A stretch of 7,388 bases of DNA from a bacterium (lineage in GTDB: Bacteria > AUK180): NCBI GenBank assembly GCA_030622125.1, contig JAUXGM010000106.1:1-7388 (forward strand), given 5' to 3'. Positions 1,687-7,388 of this stretch are shown here, piece by piece (the stretch's first letter is position 1; each line of letters starts with the position of its first letter). The notes beneath the pieces are model-generated. The model was not told the DNA's origin, ran no database searches, and saw only the letters and a list, made by a program, of their open reading frames with translations. A program made the position numbers and the translations under genes.

Positions 1687-2208
1687 ATGGGTGATAATAA
1701 TCCCCACCCCATACTAAGAGTGAAAAATTGTCTTTATCTCTTCATTTTCCTGTTATCCATTTGGATTATTTTAACGAATACCTTTCAATACGAGGAATTA
1801 CTTACCGGGATTCTGATAAGTTTTGTACTTACTCTAATCTTAAATAAAAATTATCAAAAACTCGGCCTGCCTCCTATCGGGCTCAAACGACTCGTATATT
1901 TCATCATATATATATTGGTACTATTAAAAGAGATTATAAAAGCCAATTTTGATGTGGCCTATCGAGTGCTTCATCCTAAAATGCCGATAAAACCGGGTAT
2001 CGTCATCATAAAAACTGAACTTAAGCAGGACATTGCAAAAATCCTGCTTGCTAATTCTATTACTTTGACACCGGGAACATTTACCCTTGATATTAAGAAT
2101 GATGAACTGCTGATTCACTGGATTTATGTTCGATCGGAGGAAAAGGGCGAATCTACGAAAAAAATTGGCAAAAAATTTGAAAAATACTTAAAGGTGGTAT
2201 TCGCATGA
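1687..2208 (+). CDS. mrpE: Cation/proton antiporter subunit MrpE (MbhA-like)
   Basis: A small membrane subunit of Mrp-type Na+/H+ antiporter modules. In Mbh-type complexes it corresponds to the first gene, mbhA. The 173 residues match the usual length. Two hydrophobic segments are visible near 15-32 and 36-53, and another at about 68-84. The family hallmark LANSITLTPGTFTLDI lies at 121-136 and begins the cytoplasmic domain, which ends in a Lys-rich tail. The start is well set by AGGAGG eight bases upstream. The stop overlaps the mrpF start (ATGA), indicating translational coupling. As the first gene of the cluster it marks an E-F-G-first order, unlike the classical bacterial mrpA-first operons. 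Confidence 0.93.
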   Translation: MGDNNPHPILRVKNCLYLFIFLLSIWIILTNTFQYEELLTGILISFVLTLILNKNYQKLGLPPIGLKRLVYFIIYILVLLKEIIKANFDVAYRVLHPKMPIKPGIVIIKTELKQDIAKILLANSITLTPGTFTLDIKNDELLIHWIYVRSEEKGESTKKIGKKFEKYLKVVFA

Positions 2209-2465
2209 ATGAAACAATAATTATTGTATTTTTAGGCTTAATCGCCGGGGGCATTTTATTGAGTCTGATACGAATGTTAATAGGGCCGACTGCCTCAGAC
2301 CGGGCTGTGGCTGTAGATACGATTACGACGACGATTGTTGGCATGTTGGTAATTTTAGCGTTTGTATTTGATAGGTATATTTACCTCGATGTTGCTTTAG
2401 TATATTCACTTCTCGCCTTTGTAGGATTATGTGCTATTGCAAGATTTATGGAAAGAGGGTTTTAA
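2205..2465 (+). CDS. mrpF: Cation/proton antiporter subunit MrpF (MbhB-like)
   Basis: An 86-residue membrane protein with three predicted transmembrane helices (about 4-26, 37-55, 61-80), the normal size and layout for MrpF/MnhF. Family signatures are RMLIGPTASDRAVAVDTI (23-40) and LDVALVYSLLAFVG (61-74). It is a structural subunit of the sodium/proton-translocating membrane module. The start overlaps the mrpE stop by four bases, and AAGGTGG lies seven bases upstream. The next gene begins one base after its stop codon. Confidence 0.94.
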   Translation: MNETIIIVFLGLIAGGILLSLIRMLIGPTASDRAVAVDTITTTIVGMLVILAFVFDRYIYLDVALVYSLLAFVGLCAIARFMERGF

Positions 2466-2466
2466 T

Positions 2467-2796
2467 ATGGAATTAGTTGGGGTGATTATTACTGGAATAG
2501 GTGTATTATTTTTATTTCTTGGGAATTTTGGAATATTAAGATTACCTGATGTTTATAATCGAATACAGGCGGGGACAAAGTGTACTACTTTTGGGACATT
2601 TTTCACTGTTATTGGAATAGGAATAATCCAGCCTGAGTGGTTCTGGAAATGTTTACTTATTGCTGTTTTTGTTATGTTTACAAATCCTATTTCCAGCCAT
2701 GCTATTGCAAGAGCCTCAAAGAAAAGTGGTATTCCACTATGTGACAGAAGCGTAGTAGATCAGACAAGAGAATTTGAGGAAAAGGAGGAAGCATGA
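2467..2796 (+). CDS. mrpG: Cation/proton antiporter subunit MrpG (MbhC-like)
   Basis: A 109-residue membrane protein with three predicted helices, matching MrpG/MnhG. Signatures are the ILRLPDVYNRIQAGTK loop (23-38), TTFGT (40-44) and TNPISSHAIARAS (72-84). The charged C-terminal tail (about 85-109) is cytoplasmic by family analogy. An in-frame ATG exists 36 bases upstream inside mrpF, but the ATG at 2467 is preferred: it gives the standard N-terminus and has GAGGG at a suitable distance. The stop overlaps the next start by four bases (ATGA). Confidence 0.93.
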   Translation: MELVGVIITGIGVLFLFLGNFGILRLPDVYNRIQAGTKCTTFGTFFTVIGIGIIQPEWFWKCLLIAVFVMFTNPISSHAIARASKKSGIPLCDRSVVDQTREFEEKEEA

Positions 2797-3032
2797 TATT
2801 AATAGTTTCTTTTTTAGTCGTAGCTATGCTTGCAGCAGCGGTTTCTGCTTATTTTTTTAAAGATTTGCTAAGTGCGGTAATTGCTTCCTGTATGGTCAGT
2901 CTTCTTGCAGCAGTACTGTTTTTTTTCCTGCATGCCCCGGATGTTGCAATGGCTGAAGCCTCTATAGGCGCCGCTCTTGTTACCGCCGTTTTTGTTATAG
3001 CAATCAGACGAACAAAGAGGTATGAAGAATGA
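2793..3032 (+). CDS. mbhD: Stand-alone DUF4040 / MbhD-like subunit
   Basis: A 79-residue protein of almost purely transmembrane character (about 2-20, 26-46, 53-71). It matches the DUF4040/MbhD domain through HAPDVAMAEASIGAALVTAV (47-66), in which the Glu of AEA (E55) is the family's conserved acidic residue. In classical Mrp antiporters this domain is fused to the C-terminal part of the large MrpA subunit. Here it is a separate gene, as in archaeal-type Mbh/Mbx complexes. It is thought to take part in the ion path between antiporter subunits. AAGGAGG lies four bases before the start, and there are four-base overlaps with both neighbours. Confidence 0.9.
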   Translation: MILIVSFLVVAMLAAAVSAYFFKDLLSAVIASCMVSLLAAVLFFFLHAPDVAMAEASIGAALVTAVFVIAIRRTKRYEE

Positions 3033-3715
3033 GAAAAATTATCGGTATAATTTTACTAATAATAATTGCATGGGGTATTATTACTTCGCTTCAGGAAATG
3101 CCATTTGGCACATCAAGAGCAAAAGTTGCCGATCATTATATTAATAAAGGAAGAGAAGAGACAGGTGCGGCAAATATTGTTACTTCTGTAGTAGTTGGTT
3201 ATCGAAGCTTGGATACACTTGGTGAAGTAACCGTCCTATTTCTTGCCGCTATTGGATTAGGTGCTGTTCTGGCAACTATTAAAAGAAAAGAAGACAGAGA
3301 TACAGAAAAAGCTAGTTTAATCCTTTCTACAGGATGTAGATTTTTATTCCCGCCTATTCTATTATTTGGCGCTTATATATTTATTCATGGGCATTTAACT
3401 CCTGGTGGAGGGTTTCAGGGAGGTGCAATAATCGCTTCCGCATTCGTTCTCATGTATCTTGGCTGTCATGAGGAAAAGAAGATAAACGAAACAGGTAGTA
3501 TAATTTCTGAATCTCTTGGCGGGTTGGTATTTGTAGTTATTGGATTAATTGGTTTAACAATTGGCACACGTTATTTCCTAAATAATTTTCTGCCAAAAGG
3601 GGAATTTAACACATTGTTGAGTGCTGGTATCATTCCGATAATTTATATCGCTATCGGGTTTAAAGTTGGTGCTGAATTGAGTAAAATTATTGACCTGTTA
3701 ATGGAGGAGAGTTAA
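3029..3715 (+). CDS. mrpB: MbhE-MrpB fusion subunit
   Basis: A 228-residue membrane protein made of two modules that are separate genes in some relatives. Residues 1-85 resemble MbhE: an N-terminal helix (4-20), a soluble loop, then GAANIVTSVVVGYRSLDTLG (46-65) and a second helix. Residues 95-225 are MrpB/MnhB, with the hallmark HGHLTPGGGFQGG (120-132) and three further helices. In archaeal Mbh these are mbhE and mbhF; in classical Mrp the MbhE part belongs to MrpA. The fusion is therefore an intermediate arrangement, known by analogy in some bacterial clusters. The start overlaps the DUF4040 stop by four bases, with AAAGAGG eight bases upstream. The stop shares one base with the next start (TAATG). 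Confidence 0.9.
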   Translation: MRKIIGIILLIIIAWGIITSLQEMPFGTSRAKVADHYINKGREETGAANIVTSVVVGYRSLDTLGEVTVLFLAAIGLGAVLATIKRKEDRDTEKASLILSTGCRFLFPPILLFGAYIFIHGHLTPGGGFQGGAIIASAFVLMYLGCHEEKKINETGSIISESLGGLVFVVIGLIGLTIGTRYFLNNFLPKGEFNTLLSAGIIPIIYIAIGFKVGAELSKIIDLLMEES

Positions 3716-4074
3716 TGAGTTTTTTACACAATTATATTTATTACATTGGGGCGTTTGGGCTAATATTTATCGGTCTTTTTATTATGATAGCCAAGCGAAA
3801 TTATATAAAGGTAATAATAGGATTGAGTATTCTTGAGACAGGTGTTAATTTATTTCTTATTGCTGTTGGATATATTAGTAATGGAACTGCTCCGATATTT
3901 TCAAAAGCAGGTATAGAAGCTGAAAACATGGTAGATCCGGTTCCGCAAGCACTTGTGCTTACTGCTATTGTAATTGGACTGGCTGTTCTGGGTCTTGTTT
4001 TATCTTTGGCAATACGGTTGTATAAACACTATGGAACGCTCAATTTGCAAGAAATAAAAGAACAAAGATGGTAA
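3715..4074 (+). CDS. mrpC: Cation/proton antiporter subunit MrpC (NuoK/MbhG-like)
   Basis: A 119-residue NuoK-type membrane subunit with three helices (about 8-27, 31-54, 77-101). The signature IIGLSILETGVN (34-45) carries Glu41 in the second helix. The loop-helix signature DPVPQALVLTAIVIG (74-88) is the classic MrpC motif. NuoK-type subunits help link proton or sodium movement through the membrane arm. The C-terminal tail (102-119) is hydrophilic and a little longer than in NuoK. GGAGG lies seven bases before the start. This gene is followed by a 55-base gap, the widest within the antiporter cluster. Confidence 0.94.
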   Translation: MSFLHNYIYYIGAFGLIFIGLFIMIAKRNYIKVIIGLSILETGVNLFLIAVGYISNGTAPIFSKAGIEAENMVDPVPQALVLTAIVIGLAVLGLVLSLAIRLYKHYGTLNLQEIKEQRW

Positions 4075-4103
4075 GTGATAATTTATTTAGATAGGGATAA
4101 AAT
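4075..4103 (+). promoter_or_regulatory. Weak candidate internal promoter before mrpD
   Basis: Within the 55-base gap, GTGATA (4075-4080, four of six -35 matches) and TAAAAT (4098-4103, five of six -10 matches) are 17 bases apart. This could support extra expression of the two large subunits. AT-rich sequence gives such matches often, so confidence is low. Confidence 0.15.
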
Positions 4104-4129
4104 TACTATGGTAAATAGGATATTGTAAA

Positions 4130-5614
4130 ATGAATGAAATGATTAATTTAAATCCGGTTCTTTTAATAGTTGTGCCTTTAGGGCTTGCTTTTTTGACGCC
4201 TTTATTGGGACTTATTTCTAAAAAAATAGCTAAGTGGCTACCTGTTGTTGGGCTTCTTTTTAATTTAATTGTAGCATTGGCAATTTTGCCTCATGTATTG
4301 AAACAGCCGATTATTGTAAAAATAGCAGGATTCGCCCCCCCCTTTGGAATTAATCTCGTTGCGGGCCCGGTAGGTATGCTTCTTGCCACATTAATTGCCC
4401 TCACAGGATTATTGGTTGCTATATATGCATTGAAATATATAAATGAAGGGGCGGAGCAGAAATATCACATTTTATTTCTGTTATTACTAACCGGAGCTAC
4501 AGGTGTTGTACTTACAGGAGATATTTTCAATCTTTTTGTATTTTTTGAAATTCTTTGTATTTCATCTTACGCTCTTGTGGCATATCTTGGGAATCGTGCA
4601 GGAATTGAATCGGCAGTTAAGTATCTTATTCAGGGGTCAATTGGTTCCAGTCTTTTATTAATAGGTATTGGATTGCTTTATGGGCAATTCGGAACCTTGA
4701 ATATGGCGGATTTAGCAAAACAAATCGTATCATCTTCCGACCCATCGGTATTTGTACCTATGGTGTTAATGATAACAGGATTAGGAATAGAAGCAGCGAT
4801 ATTTCCTCTTAATGCCTGGCTTCCCGACGCTCACTCATCAGCTCCGTCATCTGTCAGTGCTATACTTTCGGGAATTGCAATTGAAGTTGGTTTATATGCA
4901 ATGGTAAGAGTCCTGTTTACAATATGCCATGTCTCAAACTTTTTTATGTTTTTTTTGTTTTTAGGAGTTTTGACTGTCTTAGTAGGGGAAATGAGCGCTT
5001 TTAGTCAGAAAAATATAAAAAGAATGCTTGCCTACTCCAGCATCGGACAAATAGGTCTGATACTTTTTGCCTTCTCAATTTCCACACATTTTGGAGTGAC
5101 AGGCGGACTATTTCAGATGATAAGTCACACATTAGGAAAAGCGTTATTGTTTCTGTCAGCGGGATATATGATTTATAGAACCGGTTCTATGGAAATTTCC
5201 TCCTTTGAAGGAATTGGTAAAAAAATGCCATTAACAGCTTTATTTTTTACAATAGGCACATTATCTATTATTGGATTACCTCCTTTTGTAGGTTTTTCAA
5301 GCAAGTTTTTGATTATCAAAGCAGCCCTTGCTAAAGGAGAACTTCTTTATACAATTTTAATGGGAATTGTATTATTAGGAACAGTAATCGAAGGCACATA
5401 TTTTTTCAGAGTTATACAAACGATTTACTTTAAAGGGAAAGATGTTGCGACCGAAAGAAATGATTCCCCAATTGTTTGCTTAATTTCAATGTCCATTTTT
5501 GCAGTCTTGATAATTGTCATTGGAGTTTATCCGCATCTTGTTATGAAAATATTAAATCCGGCTGCTTCAGAACTTTTTAATAGCATCCAATATATAAGGA
5601 GTGTGTTAGGATGA
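4130..5614 (+). CDS. mrpD: MrpD/MbhH-like proton-conducting antiporter subunit with Lys-to-Glu changes
   Basis: A 494-residue NuoL/M/N-family membrane protein with about 14 helices and full family length. It should form one ion-translocating channel of the complex. The conserved TM5 glutamate is present (E140 in FFEILC). The TM7 signature reads GLGIEAAIFPLNAWLPDAHS (217-236), with E221 where Mrp and complex I relatives usually have the key lysine. The TM8 position is also Glu (E252 in GIAIEVGLYAMVR). The SHTLGKALLFLSAG motif (332-345) and a TM12-region acidic residue (E421 in VIEGTYFF) are visible. The ribosome binding site is modest (AGGA, nine bases upstream). A run of eight C (4335-4342) encodes part of A69-P70-P71. 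The stop overlaps the next start by four bases (ATGA). Family assignment is secure; the ion carried is not known. Confidence 0.93.
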   Translation: MNEMINLNPVLLIVVPLGLAFLTPLLGLISKKIAKWLPVVGLLFNLIVALAILPHVLKQPIIVKIAGFAPPFGINLVAGPVGMLLATLIALTGLLVAIYALKYINEGAEQKYHILFLLLLTGATGVVLTGDIFNLFVFFEILCISSYALVAYLGNRAGIESAVKYLIQGSIGSSLLLIGIGLLYGQFGTLNMADLAKQIVSSSDPSVFVPMVLMITGLGIEAAIFPLNAWLPDAHSSAPSSVSAILSGIAIEVGLYAMVRVLFTICHVSNFFMFFLFLGVLTVLVGEMSAFSQKNIKRMLAYSSIGQIGLILFAFSISTHFGVTGGLFQMISHTLGKALLFLSAGYMIYRTGSMEISSFEGIGKKMPLTALFFTIGTLSIIGLPPFVGFSSKFLIIKAALAKGELLYTILMGIVLLGTVIEGTYFFRVIQTIYFKGKDVATERNDSPIVCLISMSIFAVLIIVIGVYPHLVMKILNPAASELFNSIQYIRSVLG

Positions 5615-7388
5615 GTTTAGAGCTATTATTAATAATTGCATTTGGTGGTGCATTTCTCACATATTTTTCAGGTAAAATTTCCCCTACACTCAGAGATACA
5701 TTTGCTGTCATTATTTCGTTAGCATTAGTCATTTTTATTTTCTGTTTATATGGATTGGAGATCAAGAAAACATTTTATTCCGGCTTTTTAGGACTCTCGC
5801 TGGTACTGAGAATAAATATGTTATCATGGCTTTTTGCTATTGTTATATCTTCTGTCGGAGCACTTAGTATTATTTTTTCCTTAAGTTATATAAAGCAGAA
5901 GGAAAAGACAGATTTTTATTATTGTATGTTGCTTTTAATCAATTCAACAATGCTCGGCATTGTACTTGCCGGTGATTTGGCTTCATTTTTTATTTTTTGG
6001 GAAATCATGAGTTGGACTACATTTCTTATGATTTGTTATAAACGGGGTACTGCGCTTGCTGCCGGCATGAAATATATTGTAATGTCTATTTTCGGTTCCA
6101 TGACAATGCTTGTCGGGCTATTATCAGTCTATACAACATTTGATACCTTGATTATTTCTGAACTCAATGTCAAATTTGCTTCTGCATCACCTGCGTATAG
6201 TCTATTTATAATGATTATGTTTTTTATAGCGTTTGGTGTTAAAAATGCAATAATTCCGTTTCATACATGGCTTCCCAATGCACACGCTGAAGCGCCCTCA
6301 CCTTTTAGCTCGATTCTTTCCGGCGTATTAATCAAGATGGGTACATTTGGCTTTATTCTTTTTATATATGTAATAATCGGTGTAAATAATGTATTAAATT
6401 TGGGTCACGGTGTTTTAAATCTCAGATATATACTCTCAATTCTGGCAGCAATAACAATTGTTGTTCCAACATTTATTGCTATAATGCAAGATGATGCTAA
6501 AAAACTTCTAGCATGGTCAACTATTGGACAGGCAGGATATATTTTTCTCGGAATTGCTTTCGGAACAAGCCTTAGTGTTACGAGCGGTTTGCTCCATTTT
6601 TTAAATCATGCTCTTTTTAAAGCATTGCTATTTTTGGTCGTGGGAGCAATAGAATACAGAACGAATGGAGTACGAGATTTGAATTCTCTCGGAGGATTAA
6701 TAAAAAAGATGCCGGTTACTTTTATTGCTGCATTGATTGGGATATCCGGGCTGATAGGAATTCCATTAACAAATGGTTTTGTTTCAAAATGGTTAATCTA
6801 TAAAACTCTTATCCTCGAAAAATCTCCATTTTTGGCTTTTGCAGCCCTGTTTGGAACATGGGGAACAATACTATATAGTTATAAGTTTTTGCATAATATT
6901 TTTCTTGGTCAACTTCCGGAAAATTTAAAAAATATAAAGAAGGCGCCTTTCAATATGCAGCTTCCATTTTTCATTTTTTCTTTTGCAATAATTCTTTTTG
7001 GTATATTGCCCGGAATTCCCTTAAAAGTGATAAATAATATAATCTGCTCTTTCGGATTAAGTTCTTTGAATGTATCAATCTGGGGAATCACCTCAGAGAC
7101 CGGCACATTAAACATGCTCAATATTTTTGCAGCAATTGCTATTATTGGTGCTGTTGTTTGGGTTATTTTCAAATCCGCCCGTAAATCGACAACAGTTGAC
7201 CAATATGATAATTATGCAGCGGGTGCAGCTATTCCTAAAGAAAAATACCACTATACAGTTGATTATTATGCACCTTTTTATAGGATGGCAACTCCTTTTC
7301 TTAAAGATATTTTTGATATGTTTTATCAAAAAATCGCAAAAGCGACTGAATATACCTGCGATAGTATAAGAAAAATTTACACCGGTTA
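5611..7388 (+). CDS. Second NuoL/HyfB-like antiporter subunit (3' end beyond window)
   Basis: An open frame of 592 residues with no stop before the window end, encoding a second NuoL/M/N-family subunit. It keeps the canonical residues that its upstream neighbour lacks: E131 in TM5 (FFIFWEIMSWT), K211 in TM7 (FGVKNAIIPFHTWLPNAHAE) and K242 in TM8 (GVLIKMGTFGF). The HFLNHALFKALLFLVVGAIE motif (329-348) is textbook. After the last core helix (about 504-520) a mostly polar tail of over 70 residues begins, including YHYTVDYYAPFYRM (546-559) and a probable amphipathic helix (about 560-590). HyfB/HycC and NuoL also extend here. AAGGAG lies nine bases before the start, which overlaps the mrpD-like stop. 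A second H-type subunit directly after the first recalls mbxH-mbxH' of archaeal Mbx/Mbs clusters, which would be followed by the redox subunits. That continuation is not visible. Confidence 0.92.
   Translation, partial: MSLELLLIIAFGGAFLTYFSGKISPTLRDTFAVIISLALVIFIFCLYGLEIKKTFYSGFLGLSLVLRINMLSWLFAIVISSVGALSIIFSLSYIKQKEKTDFYYCMLLLINSTMLGIVLAGDLASFFIFWEIMSWTTFLMICYKRGTALAAGMKYIVMSIFGSMTMLVGLLSVYTTFDTLIISELNVKFASASPAYSLFIMIMFFIAFGVKNAIIPFHTWLPNAHAEAPSPFSSILSGVLIKMGTFGFILFIYVIIGVNNVLNLGHGVLNLRYILSILAAITIVVPTFIAIMQDDAKKLLAWSTIGQAGYIFLGIAFGTSLSVTSGLLHFLNHALFKALLFLVVGAIEYRTNGVRDLNSLGGLIKKMPVTFIAALIGISGLIGIPLTNGFVSKWLIYKTLILEKSPFLAFAALFGTWGTILYSYKFLHNIFLGQLPENLKNIKKAPFNMQLPFFIFSFAIILFGILPGIPLKVINNIICSFGLSSLNVSIWGITSETGTLNMLNIFAAIAIIGAVVWVIFKSARKSTTVDQYDNYAAGAAIPKEKYHYTVDYYAPFYRMATPFLKDIFDMFYQKIAKATEYTCDSIRKIYTG

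Follow-up and report, generated by a model that had tools for sequence, protein, structure and literature searches.

What reaction drives the Mrp-like membrane arm encoded in this locus? The window, by which we mean the whole stretch of DNA analysed, is one entire contig of 7388 bp whose edge falls inside the last gene of the arm, and the initial annotation had left the arm with an unknown redox partner. We propose, with a probability of roughly 0.6, that the window covers the 5' portion of a rex–mbx operon, in which rex is accompanied by 13 mbx genes that encode a bacterial respiratory complex of the Mbx/MBS type, controlled by Rex, fed by ferredoxin and/or NADH, pumping H+/Na+ and reducing sulfane sulfur. 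Within the window itself are a complete Mrp-like arm for ion translocation, which includes two pumps of the antiporter type (the second cut by the contig edge), and a rex gene preceded by promoter-like and Rex-operator-like sequences. All genes that had been listed from 1687 onward were recovered with strong Pfam/NCBIfam support, and their order, E-F-G-MbhD-(MbhE+MrpB)-C-D-H', does depart from mrpABCDEFG, as had been claimed:

1687–2208, + strand: MbxA, MrpE-type subunit (PF01899, 1.3e-41)
2205–2465, + strand: MbxB, MrpF-type subunit (PF04066, 2.5e-18)
2467–2796, + strand: MbxC, MrpG-type subunit (PF03334, 1.6e-25)
2793–3032, + strand: MbxD, MbhD-type subunit (PF13244, 1.5e-18)
3029–3715, + strand: MbxE, an MbhE domain fused to an MrpB (MnhB) domain in a single ORF (PF20501, 2e-9, and PF04039, 1.9e-27)
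3715–4074, + strand: MbxG, MrpC-type subunit (PF00420)
4130–5614, + strand: MbxH, MrpD-type antiporter subunit (PF00361; best NCBIfam model PRK08377, 8.2e-143)
5611–7388, + strand: MbxH', second antiporter subunit, open at its 3' end (PF00361; best NCBIfam model PRK08668, 1.2e-150)

The frames overlap or almost touch, the sole exception being a 55-bp gap ahead of the MrpD-type gene. H' runs for 592 residues, compared with about 618 in relatives, leaving about 26 codons to the stop, which lies just past the contig end. PRK08377 and PRK08668 are annotated as NADH dehydrogenase subunits N and M, and the H and H' chains of MBS (PDB 6u8y) bear identical names; the two proteins of the window are the only ones in the whole genome with PF00361. 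An Mrp-type arm with two antiporter subunits, H (4130–5614) and H' (5611–7388), is the mark of Mbx/MBS complexes, and the membrane arm almost certainly belongs to this family. In a quick maximum-likelihood tree of H' with 39 rows, the window lies in a clade of 19 that has full SH-aLRT support and bears the names of about eight phyla. Moderately supported branches join it to rows named Zixiibacteriota, Cloacimonadota and Bacteroidales and not to the copies of its own family, a position that suggests acquisition of the operon by transfer. Several of the MAG names among these relatives may be wrong.

The solved structures point in the same direction. For all five window subunits compared (MrpG, MbhD, MrpC, MrpD and H'), the best PDB match is the Pyrococcus furiosus MBS, 6u8y, which outranks both the hydrogenase MBH (6cfw) and the Mrp antiporters. 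Window H matches 6u8y_H at 8.7e-107 versus 5.5e-80 for 6cfw_H, and H' matches 6u8y_X at 1.3e-76 versus 4.3e-62 for 6cfw_H; the corresponding values are 7e-37 versus 4.5e-24 for MbxG (6u8y_G, 6cfw_G), 9.2e-26 versus 4.3e-16 for MbxC (6u8y_C, 6cfw_C) and 1.1e-18 versus 5.4e-15 for MbxD (6u8y_D, 6cfw). The best solved match of J and L from a relative is MBS as well; among all the subunits compared, only N has a structural relative closer than MBS. Residues of the proton and Na+ paths have been assigned in MBS (PMC7684303), and we paired them with window positions through sequence alignments to the 6u8y chains. Window H keeps the equivalents of E138, E219, H330 and K393, and H' keeps all of its own (E128, K217, K248, H336 and K399). 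The glutamates E58 of MbsD and E37 of MbsG are retained in MbxD and MbxG, as is the Na+-path proline P83 of MbsC in MbxC, a position occupied by proline in 76 of 76 aligned sequences. The central lysine of the proton axis, K250 of MbsH, is glutamate in window H and in 13 other aligned sequences, all from loci of the window's clade and making up most of it, and is His, Thr, Ile or Val in some other Mbx operons. Even a residue of the proposed pump thus varies among Mbx operons.

What follows H'? The initial annotation had proposed reading the downstream DNA for NuoB/C/D/H/I-like genes. Because the contig ends at 7388, this check was run on relatives, and NuoH-B-C-D-I-like genes, in the order M-J-K-L-N, were found directly after H' in 58 related loci from public genomes. 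The full 13-gene order A-B-C-D-E-G-H-H'-M-J-K-L-N, which is the subunit set of P. furiosus MBS and the gene order of the Thermococcus loci examined, occurs in 47 loci; three of these are archaeal, with an unfused N. Both genomes of the window's family that have a window-type operon also carry the M-J-K-L-N genes: in one (G001, contig 64) the operon runs through L into N, and the other (G002) has M at the end of contig 49 and M-J-K-L-N on contig 185. A genome of the same class (G005) carries J-K-L-N, and the available stretch of the closest relative, a MAG named Zixiibacteriota whose H' is 72% identical, reaches as far as M. The window's own MAG is 96% complete; searches of it with PF00346, PF00146 and PF01058 returned no NuoD-, NuoH- or NuoB-type protein, and PRK13984 gave only partial NfnL-type matches in other proteins and no fused protein. 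Since this assembly lacks M-J-K-L-N, we infer the redox arm from the relatives, and it is very probable that the organism has this half of the operon. Judged by the relatives, the partner that had been called unknown can be identified in kind: J, K, L and M of the MBS type, and an N fused to an NfnL-type flavoprotein.

Some of the related loci have peculiarities of their own. At two (L010 on contig 53 of G050, L013 on contig 2 of G029), a single frame of 1046 and 1009 residues, respectively, takes the place of H and H' and is followed by M and J; in L013 the two antiporter stretches match inside one open frame of 1282 residues. These long frames are possibly natural fusions of the two pumps. 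In G002, two different mbx operons (contigs 162 and 185) both break near residue 325 of N-NfnL at contig ends, looking as if a shared repeat had halted assembly. Two Cloacimonadota (L039, L035) have group 4 hydrogenase-like genes within about 2–3 kb after the Mbx operon, and since the large subunit at L039 has all four NiFe cysteines so near to Mbx, automatic naming may mix up the two. G001 and G004 have a further Mrp-linked cluster (L114, at about 12–20 kb, and L116), whose NiFe large subunit of 561 residues bears four cysteines; in G001 this cluster is immediately upstream of the window-type mbx operon.

Is the complex a hydrogenase? The cysteine test that the initial annotation had suggested for the large subunit was again applied to relatives. 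In 14 L sequences of the window's clade none of the four NiFe ligands is left, the aligned positions being N, E, (V, T or I) and E, whereas the true group 4 hydrogenases in the same alignment (L039, L113, L114 and L116) keep all four (CCCC). Of the possibilities raised for an arm said to resemble those of archaeal respiratory complexes, the Mbh-type hydrogenase therefore falls for this clade, and the Mbx/Mbs-like option is borne out by gene order, H', the match to 6u8y and an L devoid of NiFe cysteines. The Thermococcus loci and a large Bacteroidota group keep two of the cysteines, as does P. furiosus MbsL (C85 and C385); the window's clade has lost both. Among the relatives, the small subunit J has a short motif, (C/G)TGCG, in all non-hydrogenases, three residues shorter than the PCNNCD of hydrogenases, and its three cluster cysteines, shared with MBS, are invariant in 79 of 79 sequences; C25 and C28 of 6u8y_J align directly with J of a relative. 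The J cluster held by these three cysteines is the polysulfide-reducing site of MBS, where C25 is not needed (PMC7684303), and the glycine that replaces the first of the two motif cysteines in the Bacteroidota group is consistent with this dispensability.

A further departure from P. furiosus MBS is subunit N. Complete bacterial N proteins of the relatives (~590–645 residues) consist of a NuoI-type domain followed by an Fe-S flavoprotein domain of the NfnL/GltD type, for which the best solved match is 4ylf_B, an NfnB-type subunit; in a Thermoplasmata locus (L050) the two halves are separate neighbouring genes. The NuoI-type half is a 2x[4Fe-4S] domain, and the C-terminal half has, like NfnL/NfnB and DsrL, the cysteines of two [4Fe-4S] clusters together with FAD and dinucleotide motifs. 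There are eight cluster-type cysteines per half, and every one of 55 full-length rows, some of which are one gene fetched twice, has all 16. A glutamate cluster ligand has been described in NfnL (PMC9503767), and its position in N is E in 39 rows and D in 14. Unlike NfnL/NfnB, the domain of the window's clade sits behind a NuoI-type domain in an Mbx operon, and no NfnS-type subunit occurs among the 13 conserved mbx genes; membership in the Nfn transhydrogenases was rejected because the relatives of the window's clade have neither NfnS nor the YRR motif. NfnB binds the phosphate of NADPH via YRR, and DsrL-1, in which YRR is replaced, was found in kinetic tests to use NAD(H) (PMC7596348). YRR is present in N of 32 operons (Bacteroidota, Acidobacteria and one other), and SLE stands in its place in 18 distinct operons, with duplicates removed by hand, including every full-length N of the window's clade. 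Given this replacement, comparable to that in DsrL-1, the motif predicts that N-NfnL of the window's type uses NAD(H), which we regard as likely.

A link to NAD(H) is also suggested by the region upstream of the mbx genes, which holds the following features:

3–233, − strand: DUF134 protein, encoded divergently from rex
227–709, − strand: uncharacterised small protein, glycine-rich and cysteine-containing, divergent from rex
913–941, + strand: sigma-70-type promoter-like sequence (TTGACA, 17-nt spacer, TATTAT; 11 of 12 matches), the best promoter-like match in 690–1760
950–967, + strand: Rex-operator-like palindrome TTGTGAACACAAGCACAA, 12 bases before the rex ATG, with one mismatch to TTGTGA-N6-TCACAA, which we take to be the Rex operator consensus
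980–1612, + strand: rex, NADH/NAD+-sensing transcriptional repressor (NCBIfam NF003995, 1.1e-68; NF003993 also above its cut-off)

The rex gene ends 74 bp ahead of mrpE and directly adjoins mrpE at four other loci (L049, L119, L120 and L121); it was not seen in 27 YRR-type loci, nearly all of which have at least 1 kb of upstream sequence. Position 1687, given earlier as the start of the system, thus holds for the first Mrp-type gene, and the operon probably starts earlier, at rex (980–1612). Promoter-like matches in 690–1760 number eight versus 6.1 expected, weaker ones being common by chance. A single mismatch to the Rex pattern was reached by 1 of 2000 mononucleotide shuffles of the 200 bp before rex; over the whole window, 0.43 Rex-type matches with up to two mismatches are expected by chance, so that these are not rare. 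A first, longer Rex pattern had given only a three-mismatch match, at chance level, and was dropped. One-mismatch sites recur in relatives, at almost the same distance as in the window in L049 and near the start of mrpE itself in L037, L038 and L114. In strict 250-bp upstream regions, with the expectation taken from dinucleotide shuffles, Rex-type sites with at most one mismatch were found in 4 of 15 regions of the window's clade versus 0.01 expected, although these loci are related and not fully independent, and in 1 of 51 regions of other clades. A literature search, with subscription papers outside its reach, found neither the N-NfnL fusion of Mbx nor Rex control of Mbx described, which is weak evidence.

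We propose the following model for the complex. Electrons would enter from reduced ferredoxin at the clusters of N and/or from NADH at its flavin domain, and pass to the [4Fe-4S] cluster that J binds with three cysteines, in the chamber formed by J, L and M, where a sulfane-sulfur substrate such as polysulfide would be reduced. Chamber loops and the charged axis would then power both the H+ pumps, H' and H, and an exchange of Na+ and H+ in the distal arm. High NADH would lift repression by Rex, so that the complex would be made when NADH must be disposed of. Sulfane sulfur as the acceptor is the weakest step, to which we give even or slightly better odds; to our knowledge, sulfane reduction is proven for P. 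furiosus MBS only. The transfer of electrons from NADH to polysulfide yields little energy and little driving force. Pumping on NADH alone would therefore be marginal, and a more plausible source of energy is ferredoxin, either by itself or together with NADH. It is conceivable, if rather doubtful, that the flavin of N-NfnL joins electrons from NADH and reduced ferredoxin (electron confurcation) and sends them via N to the J cluster, with sulfane reduction pumping ions, and that separate bacterial lineages then gave rise to NADH- and NADPH-linked versions, the former controlled by Rex. Against the proposed model count the presence of Rex-type sites in only part of the window's clade, the differences of this clade from MBS (two further cysteines lost from L, and E for K250 in H), and the Rnf and the single [FeFe] hydrogenase of the window's own genome, which could do the redox balancing.

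The same complex might instead act as a ferredoxin:NAD+ (or NADP+) oxidoreductase coupled to ion pumping, an analogue of Rnf with no role in sulfur metabolism. The fusion of N to a complete NfnL-type dinucleotide-binding flavoprotein and the proposed control by Rex, which fits NAD(H) chemistry, would suit such an enzyme, and Mbx was once proposed to be a ferredoxin:NADP+ oxidoreductase (cited in PMC6349859). With both substrates on N, however, electrons would bypass the J/L/M chamber, which is considered to power pumping in both MBS and complex I (PMC7684303), and the MBS cluster motif of J is kept in all non-hydrogenase sequences. Moreover, with Rnf already present there would be no need for another ferredoxin:NAD+ enzyme, a slight point in favour of sulfane reduction. 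We therefore consider this reading unlikely, if worth serious attention. Far less probable is a quinone-reducing complex I-like enzyme of the Nuo/Fpo type. L of the relatives passes the NCBIfam cut-off of NADH-quinone oxidoreductase subunit D (PRK06075) and lacks all four NiFe cysteines, as in complex I, but by alignment the quinone-site residues H38 and Y87 of Nqo4 are V and V in L, within GPQHLGMVGN and RINVVE, and J has CTGC in place of the vicinal CC of complex I (NuoB). Membership in complex I was rejected on these two sites; the operon also lacks NuoE/F/G, its arm is of the Mrp type and its best solved relative is MBS. Least probable of all is that the genes encode an Mrp antiporter of seven subunits standing alone, or the Mrp module of a hydrogenase of the Mbh type. 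All Mrp homologues are present and the window's assembly has no redox arm, but the order and H' follow the Mbx pattern, H' is cut by the contig edge, redox genes follow H' in relatives, including both same-family genomes, and the clade's L has no NiFe ligands.

How does the sulfane-reducing Mbx/MBS-type complex proposed here compare with described systems? It shares two antiporter pumps and the short J motif with P. furiosus MBS; beyond archaeal MBS, the bacterial clade has the NfnL fusion and SLE for YRR, and the window an upstream rex with a Rex-operator-like site. P. furiosus MBH and the group 4 NiFe hydrogenases have a similar Mrp-type membrane arm and a related J/K/L/M/N arm, but neither the single antiporter subunit nor the four NiFe cysteines of MBH are found in the window's clade. 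The nearest bacterial parallel may be the 13-subunit MBX of Thermotoga maritima, an MBS homologue whose mbxA is induced by sulfur, in an anaerobe that, like the window's organism, has Rnf and an FeFe hydrogenase (PMC9431562, available text). It was published as ferredoxin-fed, and the same text describes neither a dinucleotide-binding fusion nor Rex control; we liken the two by description only. A genome whose fused N scores above the PRK13984 cut-off (G056) may have a complex of the T. maritima type.

What does such a complex mean for the family? In the clade, which comprises MAGs named Cloacimonadota, Zixiibacteriota, Fermentibacterota, WOR-3, Bacteroidota and others, cysteine loss has proceeded beyond that of MBS, and the flavoprotein that handles dinucleotides is fused to N, whereas the NADH module of complex I is a different one. 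MBS, known biochemically from a single hyperthermophilic archaeon, is seen as an intermediate in evolution from hydrogenases to complex I. For poorly cultured anaerobes, whose Mrp-linked gene clusters are easily misread as hydrogenases, our analysis yields predictions: the use of NADH versus NADPH would be told from one motif, the operon would be controlled by Rex, and the complex would reduce sulfane sulfur.
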